DNA from: an uncultured Methylococcaceae bacterium
GTDB taxonomy: Bacteria; Pseudomonadota; Gammaproteobacteria; Methylococcales; Methylomonadaceae
Assembly (NCBI GenBank): GCA_903839855.1
Contig: CAIMEB010000241.1
Location: forward strand, 1 to 55,478
Direction: 5' to 3'
Length of the DNA stretch: 55,478 nucleotides
Position numbers and translations under genes: made by a program. Each line of letters opens with the position of its first letter. The stretch's first letter is position 1. This document shows positions 1,268-14,600 of this stretch, one piece after another. The notes below the pieces were generated by a model, which was not told where the DNA came from, searched no databases, and was given only the letters and a program-made list of their open reading frames with translations.

Positions 1268-2125
1268 CTAATCGTCAGCCGAGAGTGATATTCTGATTTT
1301 TTTCATTGCGTTTTGTTCAAGCTGACGAATTCTTTCTGCAGAGACATTATAACGCTCCGCCAGCTCATGTAAGGTAGCTTTTTTCTCAGCTAACCAGCGA
1401 CTGGATAGAATATCAAAACTACGTTCGTCCAATTCTGCCATTGCAACTGACAATAAATCCTGACCGTGTCCTTCCCAATCTGCATTCTCAAGTATCACAG
1501 AAGGATCAGCTTCATATTGATGAAGATAATTGGCAGGATACGCACCTCCTTCTTCTACAGATTCATCTACTGGCATATCAAATGATATATCGTGACTACC
1601 TAAGCGTTTCTCCATTTCATAAACATCACTCAAATCAACATTTAAGTCTTCTGCAATAGCCATAGCTTCCGTATTGGACAACCAGCCTAAATCCTGTTTT
1701 GATTTACGAAGATTAAAAAACAGCTTGCGTTGCGCTTTAGTTGTGGCAATTTTCACAATGCCCCAGTTCTTAATCACATACTCATGAATTTCGGCTTTAA
1801 TCCAATGTACTGCAAAAGAAACTAAGCGCACACCAATATCAGGATCGAAACGCTTAACCGCTTTCATTAAACCAATATTACCTTCTTGAATAATATCCGG
1901 CATGGACAAGCCATAACCACTATAACCTCTGGCAACATGCACTACAAAACGTAAATTAGTCATGACTAATTCACGGGCAGCTTCTAAATCGCCCTGTTCC
2001 CTAAATCTTAATGTTAAATCGCGCTCCTGTTCAGATGTTAATCTAGGCATTTGACGAACTAAATTTAAATAGGCATCAAATGTTCCAACAGATAAATTAA
2101 TAGGTAAAGCTAATGCATTACTCAT
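1268..2125 (-). CDS. rpoH: RNA polymerase heat-shock sigma factor RpoH (sigma-32)
   Basis: Sigma-70 family factor that directs RNA polymerase to heat-shock promoters; 285 residues, the usual length. Region 2 spans about 50-120 with the conserved DIIQEGNIGLM stretch at 77-87 and the FAVHWIKAEI segment at 104-113. The RpoH box QRKLFFNLR at 132-140 is diagnostic for sigma-32 over other sigma factors. Region 4 has the helix-turn-helix near 250-278. The ATG at 2125 has GGAG about 7 nt upstream. It follows ftsX with a 79-bp gap, the classic ftsYEX-rpoH order. The gap is long enough for its own promoter, as in other gammaproteobacteria, but no clear box was identified. Confidence 0.97.
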   Translation of the reverse strand: MSNALALPINLSVGTFDAYLNLVRQMPRLTSEQERDLTLRFREQGDLEAARELVMTNLRFVVHVARGYSGYGLSMPDIIQEGNIGLMKAVKRFDPDIGVRLVSFAVHWIKAEIHEYVIKNWGIVKIATTKAQRKLFFNLRKSKQDLGWLSNTEAMAIAEDLNVDLSDVYEMEKRLGSHDISFDMPVDESVEEGGAYPANYLHQYEADPSVILENADWEGHGQDLLSVAMAELDERSFDILSSRWLAEKKATLHELAERYNVSAERIRQLEQNAMKKIRISLSADD

Positions 2126-2204: not shown

Positions 2205-3224
2205 TTAACTAGCCTTAGTATATTGGAGTTGGAAAACAAGGACAGCCCATGAACCTATTACACCCAATAATGACGCTAATAAGATTAGCGTGATCGTTTC
2301 TGTAAAATTTAAAAAAAGTAAATGGAAGCTTCCACCATAAAGCTCTGATAATGCTTCAACAGAATGATTTAATATCAACATCAGTAGTGCCACAATAAAC
2401 CATGCCAATACACCCGAAATAAAACCAATCCAAAAGCCCGTGTATAAAAAAGGCCTTCGTATAAAGGCATCAGTAGCCCCAACTAACTTTGAAATAACCA
2501 CTTCATCACGACGATTATGTAACTCTAATCGCACTGAGTTACCCACTATAAACAAGACTGCCGTCCCTAAAAGTAAACTGAGCAAATTCGCAAAAAGACG
2601 CGCTAATGAAATAATTGACTGAAGACGATCAACCCACTGTAAATCCATCTGGGCAAAATCCACCTCCGGCGATTGCTGAAAATTTTTCAATAACTCACTT
2701 AATTCTTCTTTATCACTCAGGGCATTTTTAGGTAATACCTGTAACACAATGGGTAGTGGATTTGTTTCCAAGGCATTAATAGCCGCACCAAAACCACTGT
2801 AAGTTTTAAACTCTTGTAAAGCCTGCTCTTTAGTGATTAATTTTACCGATTGCACGTTTTTATCCGACTTAATGCTGTCGACTAATTTCTTGGCATGTGC
2901 ATCCGAAACGTCCTCACGCAAAAACAACGATATTTGATTACTGGTTTCAAGATTAGAGGTCAACTGTTGGAGATTGGATACCAGGATATAAAAGCCACTG
3001 GCCAGCGAAATAGCAATCGCTAGCACAGAAATAGTCATCATTGAAACAAACGGTGTAGCGACAAGTCGACCTAGGCTCGAAAACAAAGCTTGAGCATGTT
3101 GATCGCGATAGGCATTTAATTTATCTTTGAAGTTTCCACCTGCCTTGGCAGTCTGGCGAATTTCCGGTTTTACAATTCTGACCGGTGGGTCTTTCTTAAT
3201 ACGATTTTTGTTACTCCGTTTCAT
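2205..3224 (-). CDS. ftsX: Cell-division ABC transporter permease FtsX
   Basis: Membrane partner of FtsE; the pair acts at the septum to activate peptidoglycan hydrolases through periplasmic partners. The 339-residue protein has a basic cytoplasmic N-terminus of about 55 residues, a first membrane segment near 59-83, a periplasmic domain of about 125 residues, and three further segments near 211-231, 264-285 and 311-333. This is the four-helix FtsX topology. The gene starts 3 bp after the ftsE stop, so the two are translationally coupled. Nothing is unusual in length or motifs. Confidence 0.95.
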   Translation of the reverse strand: MKRSNKNRIKKDPPVRIVKPEIRQTAKAGGNFKDKLNAYRDQHAQALFSSLGRLVATPFVSMMTISVLAIAISLASGFYILVSNLQQLTSNLETSNQISLFLREDVSDAHAKKLVDSIKSDKNVQSVKLITKEQALQEFKTYSGFGAAINALETNPLPIVLQVLPKNALSDKEELSELLKNFQQSPEVDFAQMDLQWVDRLQSIISLARLFANLLSLLLGTAVLFIVGNSVRLELHNRRDEVVISKLVGATDAFIRRPFLYTGFWIGFISGVLAWFIVALLMLILNHSVEALSELYGGSFHLLFLNFTETITLILLASLLGVIGSWAVLVFQLQYTKAS

Positions 3225-3227
3225 AAT

Positions 3228-3884
3228 TTAACCCGAAACTAATTGACCATGATCTAATTTTAAGACCCGGTGATTAAGTTGTGTAATTAATGAAATATCA
3301 TGTGATGCAATTAAAATAGTCACACCCACACGCTGAAACTGACCAAACAAAAACATAATTTCTTCTGACAAATCAGGATCTAGGTTACCCGTTGGTTCAT
3401 CAGCGATAATAATGGGTGGCTTGTTAACCACTGCACGCGCAATGCCGACCCGCTGTTGCTCTCCTCCGGAAAGCGCCAAGGGATATTTTTTTTCTTTGCC
3501 TGTTAAACTCACCTTATCTAACGCCGCTCTAACTCGCCGTGTTACTTCATGATGACCATAACCTGCTATTACTAAAGGCAAAGCCACATTATCAAAAACA
3601 GTTCTATCGTGCAACAACTTATAATCCTGATAGATAAAGCCCATTTTTCTTCGTATGTACGGTAATTGACTTTCTTTAGCGAGACTTAAATCTTGATCAT
3701 CTAATAATATTAGACCTCGACTAACACGTTCCATCACCGCAATAAGCCGCAATAAAGTGCTTTTACCGGCTCCCGAGTGTCCTGTGAGAAACGCCATTTC
3801 GCCACGCTGCAAGTGAAAGCTGATGTTGCGTAATACGTCGCCAGTCTCTGCGTAGCGCTTGCTAACATTGACAAAATTTATCAT
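3228..3884 (-). CDS. ftsE: Cell-division ABC transporter ATP-binding protein FtsE
   Basis: Cytoplasmic ATPase of the FtsEX complex. Visible motifs: Walker A GHSGAGKS at 35-42, Q-loop glutamine near 86, signature LSGGEQ at 138-143, Walker B IIIADEP at 158-164, and the switch histidine in IASHD near 195. Length of 218 residues is normal. It begins 6 bp after the stop of the Cox15-FtsY fusion gene and is followed by ftsX after 3 bp. It is therefore probably cotranscribed with both and depends on the promoters of the upstream oxidase cluster or on one inside the fusion gene. Confidence 0.97.
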
Positions 3885-3890
3885 AAGAAT

Positions 3891-5834
3891 CTAGTCTTTC
3901 ACAAATAAGGCATTAACAAATAATTCAGCATCAAAATCCTGTAAATCATCAATACCTTCCCCTATACCGATAAATCGAATAGGAATCCCGGTATGTTTTG
4001 CCAGGGCAAAAATAACTCCTCCTTTTGCAGTCCCATCTAATTTTGTTAATACTAAACCTGTTAGCGCAACAGTTTCATTAAAAAGTTTTGCCTGCGACAA
4101 GGCATTTTGTCCCGTCCCGGCATCTAAAACCAACAAAACCTCATGAGGAGCCGCTTCATCGAGTTTCCCCATAATGCGCTTAACCTTCTTTAACTCTTCC
4201 ATTAAATTTGATTTTGTATGCAAACGCCCTGCAGTATCGGCAATTAACACATCGATACCTTTAGCTTTTGCAGATTGCAGACCATCATAGATTACCGAAG
4301 CTGAATCTGCTCCGGTGTGCTGAGCTACAACTGGAATACCATTACGCTCGCCCCACACTTGCAACTGTTCAACCGCTGCGGCTCTAAAGGTATCACCTGC
4401 GGCTAGCATTACACTGTTTCCTTGTGCCTGCAAACGTTTTGCCAATTTCCCGATAGTTGTAGTCTTTCCAGCCCCATTAACACCCACTACCAGGATAACA
4501 AAAGGTGTATCCTGAACCGGTATTTCAAGCGGCAAACTACACGGTTTTAGAATACTTAACAACTCATATTTTAAAGCAGTTGACAAGGCTTCTCCGTCCG
4601 TTAACTGGTGCTTTTCAAGACTATTTGTTAAGTGCCTGATAATTTCAGTAGTGGCATCAATCCCTACATCGGCCATCAGCAGGTTAGCTTCGATCTCTTC
4701 TAATAATTCATCATTAACTTCTTTTGAACCCAGTGGCAAACTTGATAATAAGCCACTTAAACCCGAACGGGTTCTTTTTAATTGAGATTTAAGACGTAAA
4801 TATAAAGATTCAGGTAAAGGTTCTTCATAGGGTGGCTCAAACTTGGCTTCAAATGACACTACCCGTTCTTGCTGTGTTTCACCATGAATAGCATCAACAG
4901 GGTCAGTTTTGACCCGACCATATCGACTATAAAAGCTAATTGCCAACAACGGTAACATGAGTATTACCGCAAGACCTTGATGAATCGAAACGAACCATAA
5001 TGGCAAGGACAATTTTGCGCTGATAATAGTAAAACCAATCAACGTAAACAACAGCCCGCCCAACCACAAACCAGCCGTTCTTACTGATTTTAAAGAGTTG
5101 ATTGCAGTTGCACCAAACATCACGGTGCTTAACAGTACAAATACCAATAACGTGCCTACTCTATGTAGCCAATTGGCCGCCATCCGAGCATCAGGCGAAA
5201 TAACACCGAAATCTCCTGTAAATATTCCCCTGGTTAAGTCTAAGGCACCTGCATAATCACCTTCAGGCCACCATAAGCCATTACATTTTGGAAAACCAGC
5301 ACACGCCGAAGCAGCGTGATTAGCACTGACCCACACGCCCAGAATAATTTGTATCCCTAACACAAGCATGGCAAAACGAGTTAGAAGTATAAGGCCTTGG
5401 CGTCTACCTTCATTGACTTTTATTAGTTCTACTGCTGATGGATTAGCTCGTAAATACAATCCAAACAGCAGCCAAAAAGTTAGCATACCTAATAATACAT
5501 GACTAGTAATGACAAGAGGCATATTAAGAACAACTTTTGCCGAAAGACCTAGTGCAGCTTGTACAATAACTAATACCAATACGAATAAAGAGATCAAAAT
5601 GGCTGCCAACTTACCCTGTTGTTGTCGCCATGCAGTTAAAGTCAAAATCAGGACAGACAAGCCTAAAGTCGCTGTTAAATATTGATGAACCGTTCCGTTT
5701 AGTATTGTAATTAAATCCGGGGTAAACCCACCCGGTTCTACATTAGCCAACCGAACTAATGAACCCAATACAAGAATTATTAACGTTAAAACAACGCTAA
5801 AAAGTGTTAATTTTCTAAACATTCTGTTTCCCAC
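3891..5834 (-). CDS. ctaA-ftsY: Heme A synthase (Cox15/CtaA) fused in frame to SRP receptor FtsY
   Basis: One uninterrupted frame encodes two normally separate proteins. Residues 1-305 form a polytopic membrane part with the four heme-ligand histidines expected of heme A synthase (H50, H112, H224, H285) and the Cys pair ACAGFPKC (C178, C184). Residues 340-647 are a complete FtsY NG GTPase: G1 GVNGAGKTTT 451-460, G2 DTFRAAA 481-487, G3 DTAGR 533-537, G4 TKLDG 597-601, G5 GIGEG 623-627. About 35 acidic and polar residues link them; the usual acidic A domain of FtsY is lacking. The GTG at 5834 overlaps the upstream stop; the ATG at 5822 with GGGAA before it is an equally good start. Both functions look intact. 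Alternatives are an assembly error removing a stop, or in vivo processing. The first half lacks the N-terminal Cys pair of many Cox15 proteins. Confidence 0.9.
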   Translation of the reverse strand: MGNRMFRKLTLFSVVLTLIILVLGSLVRLANVEPGGFTPDLITILNGTVHQYLTATLGLSVLILTLTAWRQQQGKLAAILISLFVLVLVIVQAALGLSAKVVLNMPLVITSHVLLGMLTFWLLFGLYLRANPSAVELIKVNEGRRQGLILLTRFAMLVLGIQIILGVWVSANHAASACAGFPKCNGLWWPEGDYAGALDLTRGIFTGDFGVISPDARMAANWLHRVGTLLVFVLLSTVMFGATAINSLKSVRTAGLWLGGLLFTLIGFTIISAKLSLPLWFVSIHQGLAVILMLPLLAISFYSRYGRVKTDPVDAIHGETQQERVVSFEAKFEPPYEEPLPESLYLRLKSQLKRTRSGLSGLLSSLPLGSKEVNDELLEEIEANLLMADVGIDATTEIIRHLTNSLEKHQLTDGEALSTALKYELLSILKPCSLPLEIPVQDTPFVILVVGVNGAGKTTTIGKLAKRLQAQGNSVMLAAGDTFRAAAVEQLQVWGERNGIPVVAQHTGADSASVIYDGLQSAKAKGIDVLIADTAGRLHTKSNLMEELKKVKRIMGKLDEAAPHEVLLVLDAGTGQNALSQAKLFNETVALTGLVLTKLDGTAKGGVIFALAKHTGIPIRFIGIGEGIDDLQDFDAELFVNALFVKD

Positions 5835-6586
5835 TAACCAATTTGTGAAATTCTAAGTAGATGCATAAGGTCATCTTTCACTTTATAAGCATTAAAACCT
5901 GGCTCATATTGCATCATTAAATTCCCTAGTGGATCGATTAAAAACAACATTCCATCTGGAATATTTCCCTTTCTAATAGCCAATATTTTTTTAACAGCAT
6001 CCAGACTCGGCTTAACTCTAATCAGATCCGAATTAAGAGCAACTTCGCGATTTTCGTTAACAATTAAACGGTTTATCAAATGATCATCTATTTTGTTTTC
6101 TTCATGCAATAAACTCGAATAAAGTGCTTTACTATTTTTGTCGTCCAAACGATTTAGCCGCCATAACAACGTATCTTTTAGCCACCATTGTTGAGCAACG
6201 TCTTGAGACAGCTCTTTAAAAACAATAACTACACGTCGTGTACGCGGTAATTCTTTGTTTAACATAAGTCTTAATTGCTTTGTTTTAAGCAGTGCATCTA
6301 AACAGACTTCATTACAACCCGTATTTGGAATTACATTAACTATTAACCAATGCCCCGGTAATTCCCCAATATTGCTTGTTGAGAATAAATCAAACCCAGA
6401 AAAGTCTGTGCGACTTATAGCCACTGAAGGAATAACAAGCTGTCCGGTATTGGTAGTTCCTTTGACTAAGCCAGGGTGTTCTTTCAATCCCCAAGCAATT
6501 AAAAATGGAATAATAGTCATTCCAAAAATAATAATAATTAAGCGTTGATTTTTCTTTAGCTGATTATTCTTTTGTTGATTATTCAT
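5834..6586 (-). CDS. SCO/thioredoxin-like membrane-anchored cytochrome oxidase assembly protein
   Basis: A 250-residue protein with one N-terminal membrane anchor (about 15-33) and a periplasmic domain. The GCNEVC motif puts a CxxxC pair at C91 and C95, the spacing of SCO copper chaperones, but the rest is too divergent to call it Sco1. A protein of this kind usually lies between SURF1 and Cox15 in proteobacterial oxidase clusters, as it does here. It probably helps deliver copper or reduce CuA cysteines. Its start overlaps the SURF1 end by 8 bp and its TAG overlaps the start of the next gene by one base, so translation is coupled. Confidence 0.75.
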   Translation of the reverse strand: MNNQQKNNQLKKNQRLIIIIFGMTIIPFLIAWGLKEHPGLVKGTTNTGQLVIPSVAISRTDFSGFDLFSTSNIGELPGHWLIVNVIPNTGCNEVCLDALLKTKQLRLMLNKELPRTRRVVIVFKELSQDVAQQWWLKDTLLWRLNRLDDKNSKALYSSLLHEENKIDDHLINRLIVNENREVALNSDLIRVKPSLDAVKKILAIRKGNIPDGMLFLIDPLGNLMMQYEPGFNAYKVKDDLMHLLRISQIG

Positions 6587-7295
6587 TTTTACTTCTTTTT
6601 ATACTATACCCAAAAAATAGTACTGTTAGAGTAGCTGCCAAAGCAAACCATTGAACAGCGTAGGCCAGATGTTGCTCTGGTGGCATAATCGTTGTAACTT
6701 GCCATTCTCTTTTAAACCCTTCAGGTAAATTCTTATCTAACTCAACCTGGAATATTACTACTGAATAACCTAGTTTTTCAGACAATACACGGGCATCAAC
6801 TACTTGTAAGACTGAAGGCCAACCCTTCGTCGGTATTTCTGCACCGGCTAACTTGAGACCGACACTAGGGAAATTATTTATCCGTCCCTTGAGTAGGCTT
6901 TGCTCAGTTACAATCTGTATATCGGGTAAAATTGATCTATCCTGATTTAAAGGCACCCAACCTCTATTGACTAATACGGCTTTCGATTGACCTGCTATTA
7001 TAAAGGGGGTTAATACAAAGTAGCCGACCCGCCCATTACTGACTTGATTATCTATCAAAAATTGATGTGATTGATCATAATGTCCAATGGCTTGAACGTT
7101 TTTATATCGAAGTGACTCAACATCACCAGTAATCACACTAGTCAACTCTAGAATTTCTGATGAGGCTAACCCTTGTTTTTGTTGCTCAAAGAAGGATCTT
7201 TTTTGTTCAGCTCGTCCTAATTGCCATATACCCAGTGCAATTAATATTGATACTGTACAAAGGTAAACCAACGTTGGGAGTTTTTTTAGTTTCAT
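6579..7295 (-). CDS. SURF1 family cytochrome oxidase biogenesis protein
   Basis: SURF1 proteins assist insertion of heme A into subunit I of aa3 oxidases. The two-helix topology is clear: a membrane segment near 8-24 ending in the family motif LGIWQLGRAEQK, a periplasmic domain containing VLVNRGWVP, and a C-terminal segment after the HLAYAVQWF motif. I start it at the ATG at 7295 (238 residues). An in-frame TTG at 7325 would add ten residues with no gain in similarity. It lies in the oxidase cluster and its end overlaps the SCO-like gene. Confidence 0.93.
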   Translation of the reverse strand: MKLKKLPTLVYLCTVSILIALGIWQLGRAEQKRSFFEQQKQGLASSEILELTSVITGDVESLRYKNVQAIGHYDQSHQFLIDNQVSNGRVGYFVLTPFIIAGQSKAVLVNRGWVPLNQDRSILPDIQIVTEQSLLKGRINNFPSVGLKLAGAEIPTKGWPSVLQVVDARVLSEKLGYSVVIFQVELDKNLPEGFKREWQVTTIMPPEQHLAYAVQWFALAATLTVLFFGYSIKRSKNE

Positions 7296-7523
7296 TATTA
7301 TATCCGTTCTATTAAACCTATCCAAACTTACCTATAGGTAACTTTAGTATTAACTTCCTGCTTCACTGCGGCTGGTTTTGTTATTCGGCATCACGAACTG
7401 TTGCTTGCTGTACGTCTGACTTTCGTTTTAGGGCGCATCACCGACCTAATACGATTAATAATGTGCTTAAGGCAATTATTAAAGACTAAAATATACAAAC
7501 CCTCAATTAATCGTAACGCCACC
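7296..7523. other. Intergenic region between divergent SURF1 and DUF2909 genes
   Basis: A 228-bp stretch separates the minus-strand SURF1 start from the plus-strand DUF2909 start. It must hold a promoter for the plus-strand gene and may hold one for SURF1. I see no ORF, repeat or strong hairpin in it. Confidence 0.4.
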
Positions 7524-7854: not shown

Positions 7855-8706
7855 TTACAATAGATAAACAAAGATAAACAAGCCTAACCATACCACGTCA
7901 ACAAAGTGCCAATACCAGGCAGCGGCCTCAAATGCGAAATGGTTTTCTGGTTTGAAATGTCCTCTGACACTACGAAATAAAACCACACTTAATATAATCG
8001 CGCCCACGCAGACATGGAAGCCATGGAAGCCTGTTAACATAAAGAAAGTTGAACCATAAACCCCAGAGCCTAAAGTCAAACCCATTTCAGTATACGCTTC
8101 GTGATATTCAAAAGCTTGAAAACTAACAAACAAGAACCCTAAAGCTACTGTTGCAATCAAACCTTTAATTAACTGATCACGATTTTTTGCTAATAAACCA
8201 TGATGAGCCCATGTACAGGTAACACCACTGGTTAACAGAATTAATGTATTCAAAAAAGGTAAACCCCATGCACCCATCGGCTCAAAATCACCGCCGACTT
8301 TACCGGGACCATTCGTTGGCCAGGTTGCATCAAATGCAGGCCACAGTAATTCTTTAGTCGCACCCCCACCTAACCAAGGCACTGATAAATTACGTGTGTA
8401 CCAAAGTGTACCAAAGAACACCGCAAAAAAGACGATTTCTGAAAAGATGAACCACATCATGCCATGACGATAAGAAATACCTACCTCATGGTTATACATC
8501 CCGGTTTCACTTTCTGTTGCTTGTAGAGTAAACCAACCTACCAGCATGGTAATGAAAATAAGTAAACCTACCACCATTAGAGCTGGACCAATTGAAGAAC
8601 CATTTAAATAGTTTGCAAATCCAGCCAGCATAGTCACCAGACCCGCAGTACCTATCACGGGCCAAGTCGCTTTATGCGGAATGTAATAAGCGGTATTCGT
8701 AGACAT
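7855..8706 (-). CDS. ctaE: Cytochrome c oxidase subunit III (CtaE/CoxC)
   Basis: Integral membrane subunit of the aa3-type oxidase. The 283-residue protein shows seven hydrophobic segments. It carries the family signatures RHGMMWFIFSEIVFF near 80-94, FHGFHV near 228-233 and the C-terminal AAAWYWHFVDVVWL near 262-275. Length and order are normal for proteobacteria. It follows cox11 by 12 bp on the minus strand and ends just before a terminator, so it closes the first transcription unit of the oxidase cluster. Confidence 0.97.
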   Translation of the reverse strand: MSTNTAYYIPHKATWPVIGTAGLVTMLAGFANYLNGSSIGPALMVVGLLIFITMLVGWFTLQATESETGMYNHEVGISYRHGMMWFIFSEIVFFAVFFGTLWYTRNLSVPWLGGGATKELLWPAFDATWPTNGPGKVGGDFEPMGAWGLPFLNTLILLTSGVTCTWAHHGLLAKNRDQLIKGLIATVALGFLFVSFQAFEYHEAYTEMGLTLGSGVYGSTFFMLTGFHGFHVCVGAIILSVVLFRSVRGHFKPENHFAFEAAAWYWHFVDVVWLGLFIFVYLL

Positions 8707-8718
8707 AAGATTCCCCTT

Positions 8719-9270
8719 TTATTTTTTTACTGATTTTTCAGTATTGTCGAAAAACGTGTATGAGAGTGTAATGGTTTTGTATTGCTCTGGTATGTCAGGA
8801 TTAATAACAAAACGCATCGGCAGTGTTTTTGCTTCTCGGGGTTTAAAAGTTTGTTCCGAAAAACAGAAACACTCAATTTTTTCAAAATAACGACTGATAA
8901 CAGCTGGCGTAAAACTGGCAATTGCCCTAGCTTGAATCTCCTTATCCGTTTTATTTTCAGCATAAAAATTCACCGTATAATACTGCCCTGGATGAACGTT
9001 TAATTGTTTCTTTTCTGCATGAAATTCCATCGGTGTTGACTCATTCAATATGGTCATGAACTCAACCGAAACTTCTCGGTTCATGTCAACTTTATAAGCC
9101 ACTTCAGGGACTTTTTTAATATCATCGGGTCTGTCTCGCTCAATCCATTTCCATTCACATAACACATCGTAAAGCGGGACTAAAGCGTACCCAAAACCGA
9201 ACATTGCGATAGCGGCTATAAGCAACGTTCGCGCTAACTTAAGGTTCTTCTTGCTTACAGCATCATTCAT
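8719..9270 (-). CDS. ctaG: Cytochrome c oxidase assembly protein Cox11 (CtaG)
   Basis: Copper chaperone that supplies the CuB site of subunit I. One N-terminal membrane anchor (about 14-33) is followed by a periplasmic immunoglobulin-like domain. The copper-binding CFCF motif is at 134-137 (C134, C136), and a further cysteine at C38 lies just outside the membrane, as in the family. Length of 183 residues is usual. Its ATG overlaps the stop of the 32-residue small gene upstream (ATGA). Confidence 0.96.
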   Translation of the reverse strand: MNDAVSKKNLKLARTLLIAAIAMFGFGYALVPLYDVLCEWKWIERDRPDDIKKVPEVAYKVDMNREVSVEFMTILNESTPMEFHAEKKQLNVHPGQYYTVNFYAENKTDKEIQARAIASFTPAVISRYFEKIECFCFSEQTFKPREAKTLPMRFVINPDIPEQYKTITLSYTFFDNTEKSVKK

Positions 9271-9365
9271 GGGGAAACAGCTTGCGCAACGGCAAACAGA
9301 TAAACAATTAAGGTGATTGCCACTAAGATAACAGCTGTTAACAGGTTTTTATTTTTAGTTGTCAT
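9267..9365 (-). CDS. 32-residue membrane protein, probable cytochrome oxidase small assembly protein
   Basis: The frame starts at ATG 9365, reads MTTKNKNLLTAVI and continues into one hydrophobic segment (about 8-28), then stops at TGA 9267-9269. That stop overlaps the cox11 start as ATGA, the usual sign of translational coupling. Very short one-helix proteins between subunit I and Cox11 are annotated in many proteobacteria as oxidase small assembly proteins. Position, size and topology match, but no clear Shine-Dalgarno sequence was seen. It is too short to be called by length-limited gene finders. Confidence 0.72.
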   Translation of the reverse strand: MTTKNKNLLTAVILVAITLIVYLFAVAQAVSP

Positions 9366-9424
9366 ATTATTGGTTGTTACATTGCCCAGTTGTTCATATC
9401 ACCAGGCAACGTATCTTTTATGCC

Positions 9425-11065
9425 TTAATGTGAATCCAAAACATGTTCAGTAGGCACAACACTTGGCGGTGTAGTCCAAGTATGATAAGGAAGTGGCGTT
9501 GGTAAAGTCCATTCTAAACTATGTTTAGCTGCATCTTCCCAAACTTCGTCAGATACTTTTTCACCTGTACCACCTCTAATGGTATCGATCACTATATACA
9601 AGAACAGTAATTGGCTTATTCCAAATATAAAGCCACCTATACTCGAAATCATATTCCAATCTGCAAATTGCACTGCATAATCAGGAATTCTGCGTGGCAT
9701 ACCCGCTAACCCCAAGAAATGCTGAGGGAAAAACAAGACATTCACAGAAACCACTGATATCCAAAAATGCAATTGACCAATTTTCTCGTTATACATATTG
9801 CCAGTCCATTTAGGCAACCAAAAATATCCCGCCGCCATCAAAATAAAGACAGACGCTGGTACCAAGGTGTAATGGAAATGAGCAACAATGAAATAGGTAT
9901 CATGGTATTGGAAATCAGACGGTGCAATAGACATCATCAATCCAGTAAATCCGCCCATGGTAAATAACACCACAAAAGCAATAGAAAACAGCATCGGCGT
10001 TTCAAAGGTCATAGCCCCTTTCCACATAGTGGCTGTCCAGTTAAATACTTTAACGCCGGTCGGAACCGCAATAATCATGGTCGCATACATGAAATACAAT
10101 TCACCTGCTAAAGGCAAGCCAACAGTAAACATGTGATGCGCCCAAACGATAAACGACAGAAAAGCAATAGAACCTGTCGCCCATACCATCGAAGCATAAC
10201 CAAATAAAGGCTTACGTGCAAATACTGGGATGATAGTAGAGGCAACACCAAACGTTGGCAGAATCATGATGTACACTTCTGGATGACCAAAGAACCAGAA
10301 AATATGTTCATAAAGTACTGGATCACCACCACCCGCTGCATTAAAGAAGCTAGTATGGAAAAACTTATCAGTCAACAACATGGTTACTGCCCCAGCGAAC
10401 ACAGGCATAACAGCAATTAACAAAAAGGCAGTAATTAACCAAGTCCATACAAACAATGGCATATCCATCAATTTCATAGATGGCGCACGCATATTGAAAA
10501 TAGTCGCAATAATATTAATCGCGCCCATGATCGAGGAGATACCCAATAAATGTACCGAAAAAATAGCAAACGGTAACGCTTTACCCACTGTAATCGGTTG
10601 CAATACTAGAGGTGGATATAACGTCCAACCACCATTAGGAGCACCACCCTCCATAAATAAAGTACTCGCTAATAACAACACACCCGCAACCAACATCCAG
10701 AAACTCATATTGTTCATACGAGGCAATGCCATATCAGCCGCACCAATCATTAAGGGGATTTGCCAGTTAGCCAAGCCCACAAAAGCAGGCATAACTGCAC
10801 CAAATACCATCACTAAAGCATGCATAGTGGTCATTGAGTTGAAAAATGCAGGGTCTACAAACTGTAAGCCTGGCTCAAATAATTCAGCCCGAATAACCAT
10901 GGCCATTGCACCACCAACAAAGAACATCGCTAGGGCAAACAATAAGTACAATGTACCAATATCTTTATGGTTAGTAGTAATAACCCATCTTAACAGCCCC
11001 TTAGCGGGGCCGTGATCGTGATGATCATCGGCATGATGATCATGTTCATCTACGACAGCAGACAT
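9425..11065 (-). CDS. ctaD: Cytochrome c oxidase subunit I (CtaD/CoxA)
   Basis: Catalytic subunit of a heme-copper oxidase reducing O2 to water while pumping protons. The 546-residue protein has twelve membrane segments. H82 is a heme a ligand; the CuB site is H261, H310 and H311; HPEVY at 261-265 gives the cross-linked tyrosine Y265 and the D-channel glutamate E263, marking an A1-type oxidase. The K-channel lysine is in the TGVKVFNW stretch, and HFHY supplies the remaining heme ligands. D111 in MIGAADMA fits the D-channel entrance. The N-terminus has a His/Asp-rich tail (residues 7-18). It starts 55 bp after ctaC. Confidence 0.98.
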   Translation of the reverse strand: MSAVVDEHDHHADDHHDHGPAKGLLRWVITTNHKDIGTLYLLFALAMFFVGGAMAMVIRAELFEPGLQFVDPAFFNSMTTMHALVMVFGAVMPAFVGLANWQIPLMIGAADMALPRMNNMSFWMLVAGVLLLASTLFMEGGAPNGGWTLYPPLVLQPITVGKALPFAIFSVHLLGISSIMGAINIIATIFNMRAPSMKLMDMPLFVWTWLITAFLLIAVMPVFAGAVTMLLTDKFFHTSFFNAAGGGDPVLYEHIFWFFGHPEVYIMILPTFGVASTIIPVFARKPLFGYASMVWATGSIAFLSFIVWAHHMFTVGLPLAGELYFMYATMIIAVPTGVKVFNWTATMWKGAMTFETPMLFSIAFVVLFTMGGFTGLMMSIAPSDFQYHDTYFIVAHFHYTLVPASVFILMAAGYFWLPKWTGNMYNEKIGQLHFWISVVSVNVLFFPQHFLGLAGMPRRIPDYAVQFADWNMISSIGGFIFGISQLLFLYIVIDTIRGGTGEKVSDEVWEDAAKHSLEWTLPTPLPYHTWTTPPSVVPTEHVLDSH

Positions 11066-11120
11066 ACTTTATACCTCGAAAATAATTAAAAAGAAGTGAG
11101 TCGATAACAGCATCTGAGGC

Positions 11121-12242
11121 TTATTCATCATCATCGGGAAGTGCTGTTTGCTTAGGCTGTAATTCATCACCTACTTTATTACCCAAATTGTTACGTACAT
11201 ATGTCAGCAGTTCAGCAACCTCTTTAGCATTCAACTTGTCAAATTTGGGCATTTTTGAAGTGCCAGCACGTAAGAAACCATCTAAGGACTCCCATTTTCC
11301 TGTTGCTATTGCACTGCCTGTTAAAGCAGGAATTAAACCAGGTACCCCTGCACCATTAATTTGATGACAGCCCACACAATTTTTTAAATAAACTGATTCA
11401 CCATGAGTCATTAATTGCTGTGTAGTTTGGTCACTTAAATCTGGTTTTTGCTTTTGTTGCTCTAAAGTCTTCTTAACCCAAGCGTCATAATCAACTTGTT
11501 CCATGGCAATAACCACGATGGGCATAAAACCATGATCTCGACCACACAACTCAGTACATTGTCCGCGATAAGTACCCGGTTTTTCTACATAAGTTGACGC
11601 TTCATTAATAAAACCCGGGTTAGCATCTTTTTTCCAACCAAAATCAGGTACCCACCAAGAATGAATAACATCCATTGAGGTTAACACAAAACGGACTTTC
11701 TTTTTGACTGGAATAACTAATGGTTTATCAACATTCAATAAGTAGTGAGGCACTGAACGCGGATCAGCACCTGGGGTTCTATGCACCTTTTCACTGGCCT
11801 CATCTAAATGACTTTCAAAGTGAATGTCATTATCCAGATATTTGTAATCCCAATACCATTGACGCCCAGTTACCTGAATAGTCATATCTGATTTATCAAC
11901 ATCACTCAACTCGAGCATCGTTTTTGTTGCCGGGATAGCCATACCCACCAAAATCAGAGTGGGTATGATAGTCCAGATAATTTCAACAGTAGTATTCTCA
12001 TGAAACTGAGCCGCTACATGTCCCTTTGATTTACGATGATGATAAATCGAATAAAACATGGCACCGAATACACCAATGCCTATAAATACGCAAATCCACA
12101 GAATCAGCATATGCAGGTCATAAATGTCATTACTGACTTTTGTAACCCCTTTCATTAAATTGAGCGTATAGTCCGCATGCGCTGCCCCTAGCCCTAAAGC
12201 CATTAGGATCAGACCTGCGAATAGTTGCTTTGCTTTGTTCAC
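11121..12242 (-). CDS. ctaC: Cytochrome c oxidase subunit II with C-terminal cytochrome c domain (CtaC)
   Basis: Takes electrons into the oxidase through CuA. A signal peptide (1-23) and two membrane segments (about 43-65 and 86-106) precede the cupredoxin domain, whose CuA ligands H194, C229, E231, C233, H237 and M240 are all present. A fused class I cytochrome c domain follows with CVGCH at 289-293 and a likely distal methionine M331. The enzyme is therefore of the caa3-like layout, receiving electrons by its own heme c. It is the first gene of the minus-strand cluster; its promoter should lie in 12243-12420. Confidence 0.97.
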   Translation of the reverse strand: MNKAKQLFAGLILMALGLGAAHADYTLNLMKGVTKVSNDIYDLHMLILWICVFIGIGVFGAMFYSIYHHRKSKGHVAAQFHENTTVEIIWTIIPTLILVGMAIPATKTMLELSDVDKSDMTIQVTGRQWYWDYKYLDNDIHFESHLDEASEKVHRTPGADPRSVPHYLLNVDKPLVIPVKKKVRFVLTSMDVIHSWWVPDFGWKKDANPGFINEASTYVEKPGTYRGQCTELCGRDHGFMPIVVIAMEQVDYDAWVKKTLEQQKQKPDLSDQTTQQLMTHGESVYLKNCVGCHQINGAGVPGLIPALTGSAIATGKWESLDGFLRAGTSKMPKFDKLNAKEVAELLTYVRNNLGNKVGDELQPKQTALPDDDE

Positions 12243-12426
12243 GGAGCAGCCTCTTCGATAGTAGTTATAAATTCTTGTAAATGCTAAATCGCCTCATAAT
12301 TTCAAGACACTGTATTGTTATCTTAATTCCTGCGTACGACAAATATCACAAAAAACGTGTAGATTTTAACCTATGACGCTTATCTATACTAGATGTCCTT
12401 TTATGATTTTAATTTAACGCAAAAAA
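12243..12426. other. Upstream region of the oxidase cluster
   Basis: 184 bp without a convincing ORF between ctaC and a terminator. It must contain the ctaC promoter and leader on the minus strand. I could not identify a clear -35/-10 pair or operator. Confidence 0.4.
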
Positions 12427-12462
12427 AAGCTTGTGACTTTATTCTGTCACAAGCTTTTTAAG
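12421..12462. terminator. Bidirectional terminator upstream of the oxidase cluster
   Basis: A perfect 11-bp stem AAGCTTGTGAC (12427-12437) with GTCACAAGCTT (12446-12456) and an 8-nt loop, preceded by A residues and followed by T residues. On the minus strand it stops transcripts from the lipoprotein gene before they enter the ctaC promoter region. Confidence 0.85.
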
Positions 12463-12479
12463 TCAATAAACGATTTATG

Positions 12480-12665
12480 TCAACTGTTTAATGCTGCCGC
12501 ATACGCTTTATGGAAAGTAGGGATATGATGACCTAACTATCCTTTAACGAGTTGCGCCACTTTTTCGTTTACCGCTGCCTCACCTGCATGAGATTGAGCC
12601 TGTAAACCGCCACATATTGTGCTTTGTGAGGACTCATAGGAGTATGGGTTAAGCGCTGCCAATAG
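12480..12665 (-). pseudogene. Possible degraded coding remnant downstream of the lipoprotein gene
   Basis: On the minus strand one frame reads about 40 codons without a start, ending with GEAAVNEKVAQLVKG then TAG. It resumes in the same frame as GHHIPTFHKAYAAALNS before TGA. The composition is protein-like, but there is no start codon, no ribosome site and no family that I recognise. It could be a relic of a gene lost between the lipoprotein and the terminator, or chance. Confidence 0.25.
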
Positions 12666-12671
12666 TCAAAC

Positions 12672-14600
12672 TTAATGTAATTTACTGATAAAAGAGGCAT
12701 CAATTCGGCAATCACTGCTCACCGGATGATCAAGAACCCCTTGCTCAAAATCTCTATAAGTAGGCAACTGAAAAGCAATTCGATTAATTTTTCCATCTGA
12801 AAATTCAAACTCAATAGCTCCCCCTTTCGCTCTAGGACTGTTTGGTTTAGTAGTGAACAACACAAAACCATCGTTTGCAATCGATTGTCCCTGTTGATCA
12901 GATACTAAACGCGCACAACTAAACTCATTAAACGCTAGGCCAGTAATAACTTGCACTAACTGACGTGCCGTCACAATAAGCCCCTCACCAGGAATAGTTA
13001 TTGGTGAAGAAATCACTGGGACTGGAGCTAAAGTCGTTTCTGACGCAGGCGCTGAAACTGGAGCAACCCCAGAGGCTGAACCTGCTACCGTTGAAGAATT
13101 GGTTACGGGTGGGGTAACTGACTCAACCACTGGCGGTGATAATAATTTCTCTAAACCAAAATCGCCTAAATGATTTTGCAACAACACAGTCCCAACGCCA
13201 TTTTTAGTGGTTGCCAACAACGGATACAACTGCTGCTCCATTTCAATCTTGCTCGGATTATTAAGAACTGAAATCAACTGTCGCTCAATCGATTTAAGTG
13301 GTGATAAAAACCGCTCCTTCTTTTGACTGACCGATTCCATTTGCTGCCAATCAAATTGAGAGTTAACGGATAGTCCCATTGATTTCATCACTGCATAATC
13401 TTCAGTTGCTAAACACGAACCAAAGTTTTTGGCCTGATAACCTGCCATTATGTGCGTAGAAATTTCACTGCTCTGAATCTTCTGAGGCGAAATATTATAA
13501 TTTTTCCAATCATTACTATTCGTTAAGAAGTAATAAAGAAAGGCATTACGATCAAACTTATTAAAACCCAGATCTTTTAACACTAACTTTATTTTTCGGC
13601 AATTATTATCCACCTCAGCGTAATTAGCCCAATCAGGTTTTAAATTCGGTTTTGCTGGATGCTTTGAATCTTCAATCAGTTGTAAAAGCTTAACTTCACC
13701 CGATGCTGACTTAATGGGTGAATAACTGATTTCGTCAAATGTTAAATCTCTTGCATCAGGAACCCCAGTCGCAGAACTCTTTAACAACAAGGATGGAATA
13801 AGCTCTGGAAAAATTCTTAACTCCCCTAGCGGTTGAGTATCCGCACCAAAAATATTAACCCCACCTTCTGCCACCGCATACACTTTAAACAAGGTTTGAT
13901 TAAGTACACCTGTTTTTCCCGAGAAATCAACCAATGGGGGCAATGAATGAGACTCTGAACTATTCTTGACAGTTGTTTTAGTCGGTGTAGATAAGGGGGT
14001 CGTTTTTACCAACTGACCCGCAAACTGTCCAACCACAGCAACGCCCATTCCCACACCCGTTAAGGCTAATAAATTACTTGCCGCAGTGACATCATTGGTT
14101 AAACCTGAAACATCCATATCACTATTAGCGCTGGATATAAAACTGTAATCAACATCGGTTGCTTTACCCGAATCCAAACGTATCCAAGGTGTCAAAATTG
14201 TTTTCTTAGCATCAAATTTAAAATTACATTTCCCGGAAGACGCTTTGTACACAAACCCCGGCACCTCATTATTAAACTTAAGCACCTCATTACGAATAGT
14301 AAAAACCAAAGAAGAAGACAAATCCCCTTTCTCATACGAAGGGGTCATATTATTACACCCCGCCTTGAGTATGTTATCGCCTTTAAAATTGAATTCAGAA
14401 ATTAACCGCACATAATAATCATCTCCGTCAATCACCTCAAAACCCGGCAAAGACTGGAATTGATGTAACTGAATAGATTGAACAGACTGCGGATCATTAT
14501 TATTTTGACTCGATGGATAGTCTATAGCAATTTGCCGGGTCGAGGTACACCCTGCCAGCATACAACTGGCGACTAAATTAACTACATAACGATTAGACAT
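12672..14600 (-). CDS. Uncharacterised 642-residue lipoprotein
   Basis: Residues 1-18 form a lipoprotein signal with lipobox LAGC (acylated cysteine C18), so the mature protein is anchored in a membrane, probably the outer one. The middle has no motif I recognise. A stretch rich in Pro, Ser, Thr, Ala and Val near 497-535 looks like a flexible linker before a C-terminal domain of about 110 residues. A mildly hydrophobic Gly/Val/Ala stretch near 175-195 could contact a membrane. It follows the HEAT-repeat gene by 92 bp on the same strand and may be cotranscribed. Function unknown. Confidence 0.8.
   Translation of the reverse strand: MSNRYVVNLVASCMLAGCTSTRQIAIDYPSSQNNNDPQSVQSIQLHQFQSLPGFEVIDGDDYYVRLISEFNFKGDNILKAGCNNMTPSYEKGDLSSSLVFTIRNEVLKFNNEVPGFVYKASSGKCNFKFDAKKTILTPWIRLDSGKATDVDYSFISSANSDMDVSGLTNDVTAASNLLALTGVGMGVAVVGQFAGQLVKTTPLSTPTKTTVKNSSESHSLPPLVDFSGKTGVLNQTLFKVYAVAEGGVNIFGADTQPLGELRIFPELIPSLLLKSSATGVPDARDLTFDEISYSPIKSASGEVKLLQLIEDSKHPAKPNLKPDWANYAEVDNNCRKIKLVLKDLGFNKFDRNAFLYYFLTNSNDWKNYNISPQKIQSSEISTHIMAGYQAKNFGSCLATEDYAVMKSMGLSVNSQFDWQQMESVSQKKERFLSPLKSIERQLISVLNNPSKIEMEQQLYPLLATTKNGVGTVLLQNHLGDFGLEKLLSPPVVESVTPPVTNSSTVAGSASGVAPVSAPASETTLAPVPVISSPITIPGEGLIVTARQLVQVITGLAFNEFSCARLVSDQQGQSIANDGFVLFTTKPNSPRAKGGAIEFEFSDGKINRIAFQLPTYRDFEQGVLDHPVSSDCRIDASFISKLH

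Follow-up and report, generated by a model that had tools for sequence, protein, structure and literature searches.

A 55,478-nucleotide stretch of DNA from an uncultured Methylococcaceae bacterium (positions 1 to 55,478 of contig CAIMEB010000241.1, assembly GCA_903839855.1; hereafter the window) carries a gene in which a membrane domain derived from the heme A synthase CtaA (Cox15) is joined in frame to FtsY, the receptor of the signal recognition particle (SRP). We confirmed that the joined gene is real, and an assembly artefact was rejected because the same joined gene recurs across many independent genomes. Comparison with relatives makes it likely that the fusion was born by an inversion, that it turned an enzyme into a membrane anchor for FtsY, that this anchor probably still binds heme, and that the protein may still be bifunctional in a few lineages. 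The architecture extends over most of the order Methylococcales and is undescribed as far as open PubMed Central (PMC) text shows; a search of the open PMC literature, with subscription papers and preprints outside its scope, found no description of a CtaA-FtsY fusion, in agreement with a preliminary description of the window that knew of no such protein.

Architecture and distribution of the CtaA-FtsY fusion

The fusion frame, with its stop codon at 3891–3893, comprises 647 codons when counted from a GTG at 5834 (Table 1). The coordinates given in the preliminary description stand, with the addition that the gene lies on the minus strand, the plus strand across this stretch being full of stops. 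The true start is probably the ATG at 5822 (M5 of 'MFRK') rather than the GTG at 5834, giving 643 amino acids (aa), since the 'MFRK' start is common to the fusion family and since, in eight relatives (L006, L015–L020 and L027), a stop directly precedes the open frame, whose first residue corresponds to query residue 4 or 5.

Profile searches returned a Pfam COX15-CtaA match at residues 49–294 (88.9 bits, cut-off 29.9), followed by SRP54_N (residues 359–425) and the SRP54 GTPase (residues 444–644, 259.5 bits), and the C-terminal half matched the NCBIfam ftsY equivalog TIGR00064 with 364.5 bits (cut-off 260.7). An AlphaFold2 model of the whole protein, built from a 23-sequence alignment, had a mean predicted local distance difference test (pLDDT) score of 79.6 and a predicted template modelling (pTM) score of only 0.50, a low value that two bodies joined by a flexible linker would be expected to give. 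The model consists of eight long membrane helices up to residue 304, a stretch with pLDDT below 50 (residues 308–341), helices at residues 344–364 and an NG fold, and its C-terminal part matched E. coli FtsY-NG with a template modelling score of 0.94 on the target, at 62% identity. Modelled alone, the first 310 residues reached a pTM of 0.81 (ten sequences), and a PDB search with the CtaA half gave only two significant matches, both heme A synthases (B. subtilis 6a2j, E 1.8e-6; Aquifex 8aw5, E 1.2e-4). Since eight helices would bring both ends of the CtaA part to one side of the membrane, FtsY would be cytoplasmic if the start is cytoplasmic.

These data bear out two earlier statements, namely that one frame holds the CtaA heme-ligand histidines together with the FtsY GTPase motifs, and that the membrane part stands in place of the FtsY A domain: residues 50, 112, 224 and 285, at the four CtaA heme-ligand positions, are all histidine, the GTPase motifs are present, and eight CtaA helices precede the NG domain. 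The lipid-binding helix is kept in the fusion, as judged by alignment with E. coli FtsY, and is predicted to bind lipid. By every sequence test made, the window protein is a member of the FtsY family. Its only other match within its own genome, 36% identical over the GTPase part, is taken to be Ffh, and no second FtsY was found in this genome, which is estimated to be 99.98% complete. As the only FtsY found in the genome, the fusion must do the essential job of SRP receptor.

The same joined gene, which the preliminary description had proposed to seek in relatives, spans both parts in one frame in 49 of 61 close genomes; a further five (G004, G005, G022, G023 and G027) hold fusion pieces ending at contig ends, and the seven with separate genes make up families f7 (five genomes) and f8 (two). 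A scan of the order found matches in 300 of 311 genomes at E values up to 1e-60, and all 150 matches listed span both parts and come from families f1–f6, placing the fusion in six of the eight Methylococcales families; listed rows flagged with a stop overrun the terminal stop by their coordinates, except in G122. Thirty genomes, chosen mostly for weak, split or missing scores, were searched a second time: FtsY was detected in 24, with frames of 558–672 aa in 22 of these, G112 being cut by a contig end and G102 broken, and no FtsY match was obtained at the limit set in G022, G125, G211, G264, G219 or G089. Named records of the fused clade, among the matches listed, include Methyloglobulus, Crenothrix polyspora, Methyloprofundus and other Methylococcales; the next-best 71 of the 80 loci listed are FtsY-only matches, mainly from Pseudomonas. 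Within a class sample of 369 genomes, 15 of which gave no match, no fusion was found among the matches listed from the 365 gammaproteobacteria outside the order, all of whose rows start at query residue 283 or later.

The AMO family, which includes methane monooxygenase subunit A, is present in the window's genome, and the organism is therefore probably a methanotroph. A link between methanotrophy and the fusion was rejected, as AMO occurs in 19 of 25 genomes, including seven of nine unfused f7/f8 genomes, and does not separate the groups.

Unequal retention of the two CtaA bundles

In known heme A synthases, according to the excerpts of PMC7327177, PMC13213658 and PMC12808453 on which we draw, heme b is bound in the C-terminal helix bundle (C-bundle) and the substrate heme O in the N-terminal one (N-bundle). 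Numbering and residue roles follow the B. subtilis enzyme as given in passages of PMC12808453, where the catalytic Glu is described as strictly conserved in the family; its loss in yeast Cox15 (E166A) abolishes heme a, as reported in part of PMC13213658. The window protein has retained His224 (codon 5163–5165), His285 (codon 4980–4982) and the Cys178/Cys184 pair of the C-bundle. The position equivalent to Glu57 is occupied by Gly47 (codon 5694–5696), so that the catalytic Glu of the E-x-x-H/N-R motif is absent, and the Cys pair of the first loop, present in the nearest unfused relatives, is absent from the window protein and from all 30 aligned members of its genus. As regards heme A synthase membership, the Pfam COX15-CtaA match, the fold and the four histidines were found, and the catalytic Glu and the first-loop Cys pair were not. 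The window protein is best described as CtaA-derived and should not be classed as a heme A synthase, since a test for the catalytic Glu found it missing. The earlier term 'eight-helix enzyme' does not fit a half that lacks this Glu and the first Cys pair, in a genome with a free full-length CtaA elsewhere.

We surveyed these residues in 122 distinct fused proteins (from 115 genomes of 41 genera and six families, plus seven named contigs). In 121 of them, all except L182, the second Cys pair occurs together with His216 and His278; the complete set of first Cys pair, Glu57, His60 and His123 survives in 31. The catalytic Glu on its own is retained in 35 fusions and the first and second N-bundle histidines in 80 and 75, respectively; none of the 30 aligned fusions of the window's genus has the full N-bundle signature, whose intactness changed at least 13 times on the FtsY tree. 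As a baseline for drift we used 142 columns invariant in seven unfused CtaA (77 in the N-bundle, 63 in the C-bundle), of which the fusions keep on average 46% in the N-bundle and 57% in the C-bundle; the five most retained C-bundle columns include both heme-b histidines and both cysteines, at 0.99–1.0. Genus g36 (L172, L174–L176, L178, L179 and L183–L185) has fusions of about 565 codons; the nine members aligned lack transmembrane helices TM2 and TM3 and have intact C-bundle motifs, and the two members plotted show six hydrophobic segments.

The fused CtaA domain is constrained wherever tested. Ratios of nonsynonymous to synonymous substitution (dN/dS), computed by the Nei-Gojobori method, were 0.04–0.33 for the CtaA part in the 13 pairs computed, some single values being rough because the synonymous distance approaches or exceeds 0.7. 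Eight pairs of the window's genus gave 0.14–0.33 for CtaA (N-bundle 0.14–0.38, C-bundle 0.09–0.32) and 0.00–0.07 for FtsY, with the N-bundle looser than the C-bundle in six of the eight. The ratio was 0.07 for both bundles in L196/L197, a pair with the fused CtaA as sole copy, 0.07 and 0.18 for the N- and C-bundle in L200/L208 (intact, with a second copy), and 0.04 over the whole remnant of the six-helix pair L175/L176. A pseudogene is not supported for the window, where the frames are open, and values well under 1 in all 13 pairs speak against a 'decaying' fused gene, a case that the preliminary description had raised.

Constraint of this kind bears on whether the fusion is a frozen accident, which brings no benefit and persists since FtsY is essential and the membrane half hard to shed without breaking FtsY. 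A single rearrangement at the breakpoint would suffice to start it, the N-bundle erodes repeatedly, and two copies (G122 and G102) are broken between the parts. Against this, the C-bundle ligands are kept in 121 of 122 fusions with dN/dS well under 1, and 122 of the 125 FtsY frames loaded from fused families are still fused (of the other three, L173 runs into a contig end and two are broken), although in unfused outgroups FtsY makes do with 27–35 residues ahead of this point, measured from the upstream stop. We consider a purely neutral persistence unlikely.

Retention of the C-bundle ligands could also reflect heme gating, in which the occupancy or redox state of heme b would regulate FtsY and tie membrane insertion to heme or oxygen status. 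The persistence of the heme-b histidines and Cys pair in nearly every fusion, including those of g36 that have lost two N-bundle helices, and the dN/dS of 0.04 in the six-helix remnant would suit such a sensor; structural heme binding explains the same conservation, however, the model places a long disordered linker between bundle and FtsY, and no sensor partner was identified. Gating appears to us slightly less probable still than an accident without benefit.

The window's genome holds a second, free full-length CtaA of another type (L271, 2771–3814 of G000:C59). The preliminary description had proposed looking for second copies of both genes; a free ctaA thus exists, on another contig, and a free ftsY was not found. 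In the same genome, which also has cyoE, the free copy scores 194.7 bits against PF02628 and the fused one 91.2. Free copies carry an E-x-x-N-R motif and no second Cys pair; Asn at that motif position is accepted as a heme ligand in the family in the portions of PMC12808453 consulted, and a CtaA type with H60N is tabulated in an excerpt of PMC8239418. L271 does not lie beside an oxidase cluster in the stretches seen, and the tested neighbours of free CtaA in four relatives are GcvT-like or HDOD/aldolase genes. The 21 free CtaA in our tree form one clade apart from the fused and the f7/f8 copies, with a support of 100 in the Shimodaira-Hasegawa-like approximate likelihood ratio test (SH-aLRT). 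Because the fused half lacks the Glu and the Cys pair and a free full-length CtaA exists, heme A synthesis in the window's organism most likely rests with the free copy.

A PF02628 search of 135 genomes (61, 72 and two more) found the fused CtaA as sole copy in six, namely G040 (f5), G254–G257 (genus g32) and G103 (83% complete), with a fifth g32 member, G258, outside this search. All five sole-copy fusions that were aligned keep every N-bundle residue, and 60 of the 84 fusions accompanied by a second CtaA do not have the intact N-bundle signature. A search for CoxA in the sole-copy genomes found it in G040, G255 and G256 and not in G254, G257 and G103. Such genomes are where bifunctional coupling would be expected to show, that is, a fused CtaA that is still a heme A synthase and whose link to the SRP receptor couples heme A supply to the co-translational insertion of CoxA: besides the intact sole copies and the three with CoxA, the full signature survives in 31 of 122 fusions, and the N-bundle dN/dS of the sole-copy pair L196/L197 is low, at 0.07. 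The fusions of the window's genus (0 of 30 with the signature) and the free CtaA of its genome argue against it, and a mutual effect of the FtsY and CtaA activities lacks any indication. We regard coupling as possible, with the balance of probability against it. Of the two roles earlier suggested, a simple anchor comes near our best reading for the window's species, and a tie to oxidase biogenesis is possible in lineages with an intact fused half.

Finally, one transcript might yield two products if an internal start or proteolysis freed a soluble FtsY. An in-frame ATG, GTG or TTG occurs in 111 of 122 linkers, and the broken copies in G122 and G102 would need an internal start if real; a Shine-Dalgarno-like 4-mer at the searched distance accompanies these codons in just 13 of 122 linkers, and the window's linker has no start codon with such a 4-mer at the distance searched. 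An internal start that frees soluble FtsY is weakly supported at best, and we judge this reading the least probable of those considered.

Gene order and the origin of the fusion

As the preliminary description had noted, the junction falls exactly where the oxidase cluster meets ftsEX-rpoH: the upstream order is coxB-coxA-ctaG-coxC-SURF1-PA0111-like and the downstream order ftsE-ftsX-rpoH, all on the strand of the fusion, with six bases between its stop and ftsE. In the unfused L050 (f7), an M16-M16 pair points leftward and ftsY-ftsE-ftsX-rpoH rightward, followed after rpoH, all leftward, by an aspartyl protease, cyoE, ctaA, a PA0111-like gene, SURF1, coxC, coxA and coxB; L053 (f8) has the same convergent plan, with an M16 gene on the other side of ftsY. 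In family f6 (L045 and L048), rpoH faces cyoE, the gene after which has no Pfam match, and on contig C208 of the window's genome (L277) cyoE is divergent from an M16 peptidase pair, of the kind flanking ftsY in L050, the open frames being 28 bases apart. Inverting the cyoE-to-ftsY stretch of the unfused order would join ctaA to ftsY-ftsE-ftsX-rpoH, leave cyoE facing rpoH and set cyoE back to back with the M16 pair, and gene order therefore indicates that the fusion arose by inversion. Both reciprocal ends occur together in none of the genomes examined; the search for the cyoE-M16 pair covered the window's genome only, and no cyoE was found within the stretch after rpoH in L265–L267.

Inversion, read from gene order in outgroups and descendants, replaces the earlier proposal that deletion of the cyoE/sco end of the oxidase cluster and of the ftsY start produced the junction; the small gene beside cyoE in L050, first guessed to be sco, is the aspartyl protease by Pfam. 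A quick FtsY tree, in which 119 fused rows lie on one side of a branch with SH-aLRT 97 and a single label change suffices, agrees with a single origin of the fusion. Between rpoH and cyoE, L053 carries two genes of about 470 aa (11486–14308), the first of which matches COX1 (52.9 bits, cut-off 34.8).

The stop codon of the PA0111-like gene overlaps the GTG of the fusion by one base, and this gene occupies the same place, directly upstream of ctaA, in most annotated fused and unfused clusters.

Table 1 Features of the fusion gene and its neighbours in the window
Feature	Position	Strand	Evidence
ctaA-ftsY fusion gene	3894..5834	-	open frame, profile matches, relatives
CtaA N-bundle, TM1-4, residues 5-130, substrate-heme half	5445..5822	-	alignment, model
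CtaA C-bundle, TM5-8, residues 142-304	4923..5411	-	alignment, model, PDB matches
Linker, residues 305-343, predicted disordered	4806..4922	-	pLDDT <50 at 308-341
Helices, residues 344-364, which align with the E. coli FtsY lipid-binding helix of the A/NG junction	4743..4805	-	alignment, model
FtsY NG GTPase domain, residues 371-647, GTPase motifs present	3894..4724	-	profiles, alignment, structure match
PA0111-like protein	5834..6586	-	39 bits (weak) against the PA_0111 redox-active disulfide family; no Pfam match
SURF1	6579..7325	-	Pfam
coxC, ctaG, coxA, coxB (oxidase cluster upstream)	7855..12242	-	presumed identities, assigned from the sequence; homologous blocks in relatives
ftsE (downstream)	3228-3884	-	
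ftsX (downstream)	2205-3224	-	
rpoH (downstream)	1268-2125	-	

Proposed role of the fusion and comparison with known systems

Several observations weigh against an inversion-born fusion whose enzyme became a heme-binding anchor. Conservation of the C-bundle residues could serve folding alone, and anchoring, heme binding and activity are inferred from sequence. L182 (genus g31) lacks the second Cys pair and the His216 position, and L186 and L187 of the same genus have very divergent membrane halves with little similarity to CtaA, and are still fused. The remaining 24 of the 84 fusions with a second CtaA are intact, so a second copy alone does not bring loss; a statistical link between the two was tried and dropped, as a Fisher p of 0.003 ignores kinship and the phylogenetically independent pairs, only two to three, are not significant. 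Three genomes (G007, G011 and G050, 65–85% complete), left out of the sole-copy count, have a degenerate fused copy with no second CtaA found, and would contradict the pattern if free copies are truly absent. In the quick FtsY tree, which has some long branches, unfused f7 and f8 FtsY fall among other gammaproteobacteria and not beside the fused clade. Lastly, an in-frame TGA in the last CtaA helix splits the halves of L223 (G122:C246, a draft 75% complete), and in L190 (G102:C243, family f4, a draft 98% complete) the two parts are out of frame with each other, with a stretch of the GTPase domain missing from FtsY. Both breaks may be errors or real; that in G102 is likely a draft error, because FtsY is thought essential and no other FtsY match was found there.

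On our preferred reading, the cyoE-to-ftsY segment would have inverted in an ancestor of most Methylococcales, as gene order suggests, fusing ctaA by its 3' end, in frame, with the 5' end of ftsY. The early fusion protein would have been heme A synthase and SRP receptor at once, and may still be where it is the sole CtaA. In many descendants, where a second CtaA type is present, the fused N-bundle has lost active-site residues repeatedly and, in one genus, two whole helices, with the C-bundle retained in its two heme-b histidines and Cys pair. In the window's species the CtaA domain would act as a permanent membrane anchor of FtsY, taking over the first contact that the acidic A domain makes with the membrane, and would probably be stabilised by heme b, whose occupancy is suggested by ligand conservation alone. 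By homology to FtsY, the retained lipid-binding helix and NG domain would bind SRP-ribosome complexes, the helix switching on at the membrane and GTP being hydrolysed. The receptor would now itself be a polytopic membrane protein, likely in need of its own pathway for insertion.

Such an arrangement has precedents in E. coli, where, in the excerpts of PMC5533587 used here, the first A-domain helix makes a loose membrane contact, an amphiphilic helix at the A/NG junction switches FtsY on, and the first helix can give way to an unrelated membrane protein or a transmembrane segment; in the same host, the NG domain of FtsY is functional when attached to an unrelated membrane protein (Zelazny 1997, cited in passages of PMC2780400 and PMC5533587). 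The fusion fits this two-helix scheme, in that the CtaA part stands in for the first contact and the second helix is still present. By analogy, it may work like an integral-membrane SRP receptor. The integral-membrane FtsY of actinobacteria (Streptomyces lividans) and engineered FtsY-NG carriers, as described in parts of the same two papers, likewise tether NG by N-terminal hydrophobic segments; their tether is a hydrophobic segment or an engineered carrier, whereas the fusion has a complete domain of eight helices, of natural origin and descended from a heme enzyme. CtaA/Cox15 proteins (B. subtilis 6A2J, Aquifex 8AW5) share the fold, the four histidine positions and the second Cys pair with the window protein, which differs in lacking the catalytic Glu and the first Cys pair and in carrying FtsY at its C-terminus.

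The eukaryotic SRP receptor consists of two subunits, with an unrelated anchor GTPase and no heme-enzyme domain. Its SR alpha, anchored by SR beta, is likewise a receptor GTPase held permanently at the membrane by an integral partner (an excerpt of PMC2780400). Heme A synthase also shares one polypeptide with another protein in fusions of CtaA and CtaB (heme O synthase), as noted in portions of PMC8239418 and PMC12808453; CtaB is the preceding enzyme of the same pathway, whereas the partner here is the SRP receptor.

Taken furthest, Methylococcales might insert their membrane proteins through an SRP receptor that is a heme protein, with both functions in some lineages and with gating or stabilisation by heme b in the others; the biogenesis of membrane proteins would then be physically linked to the supply of heme, and the receptor would be among the clients of its own pathway. 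We think it unlikely that all of this holds. FtsY is an essential protein whose mode of membrane contact is still debated, and the natural replacement of its A-domain step across most of an order of methane oxidisers offers a convenient way to test the purpose of the A domain. The locus would record an inversion that fused two important genes and the passage of an enzyme into an anchor while one of its two heme sites stays, and this selective retention is relevant to what heme b, a cofactor of unexplained role, does in heme A synthase.

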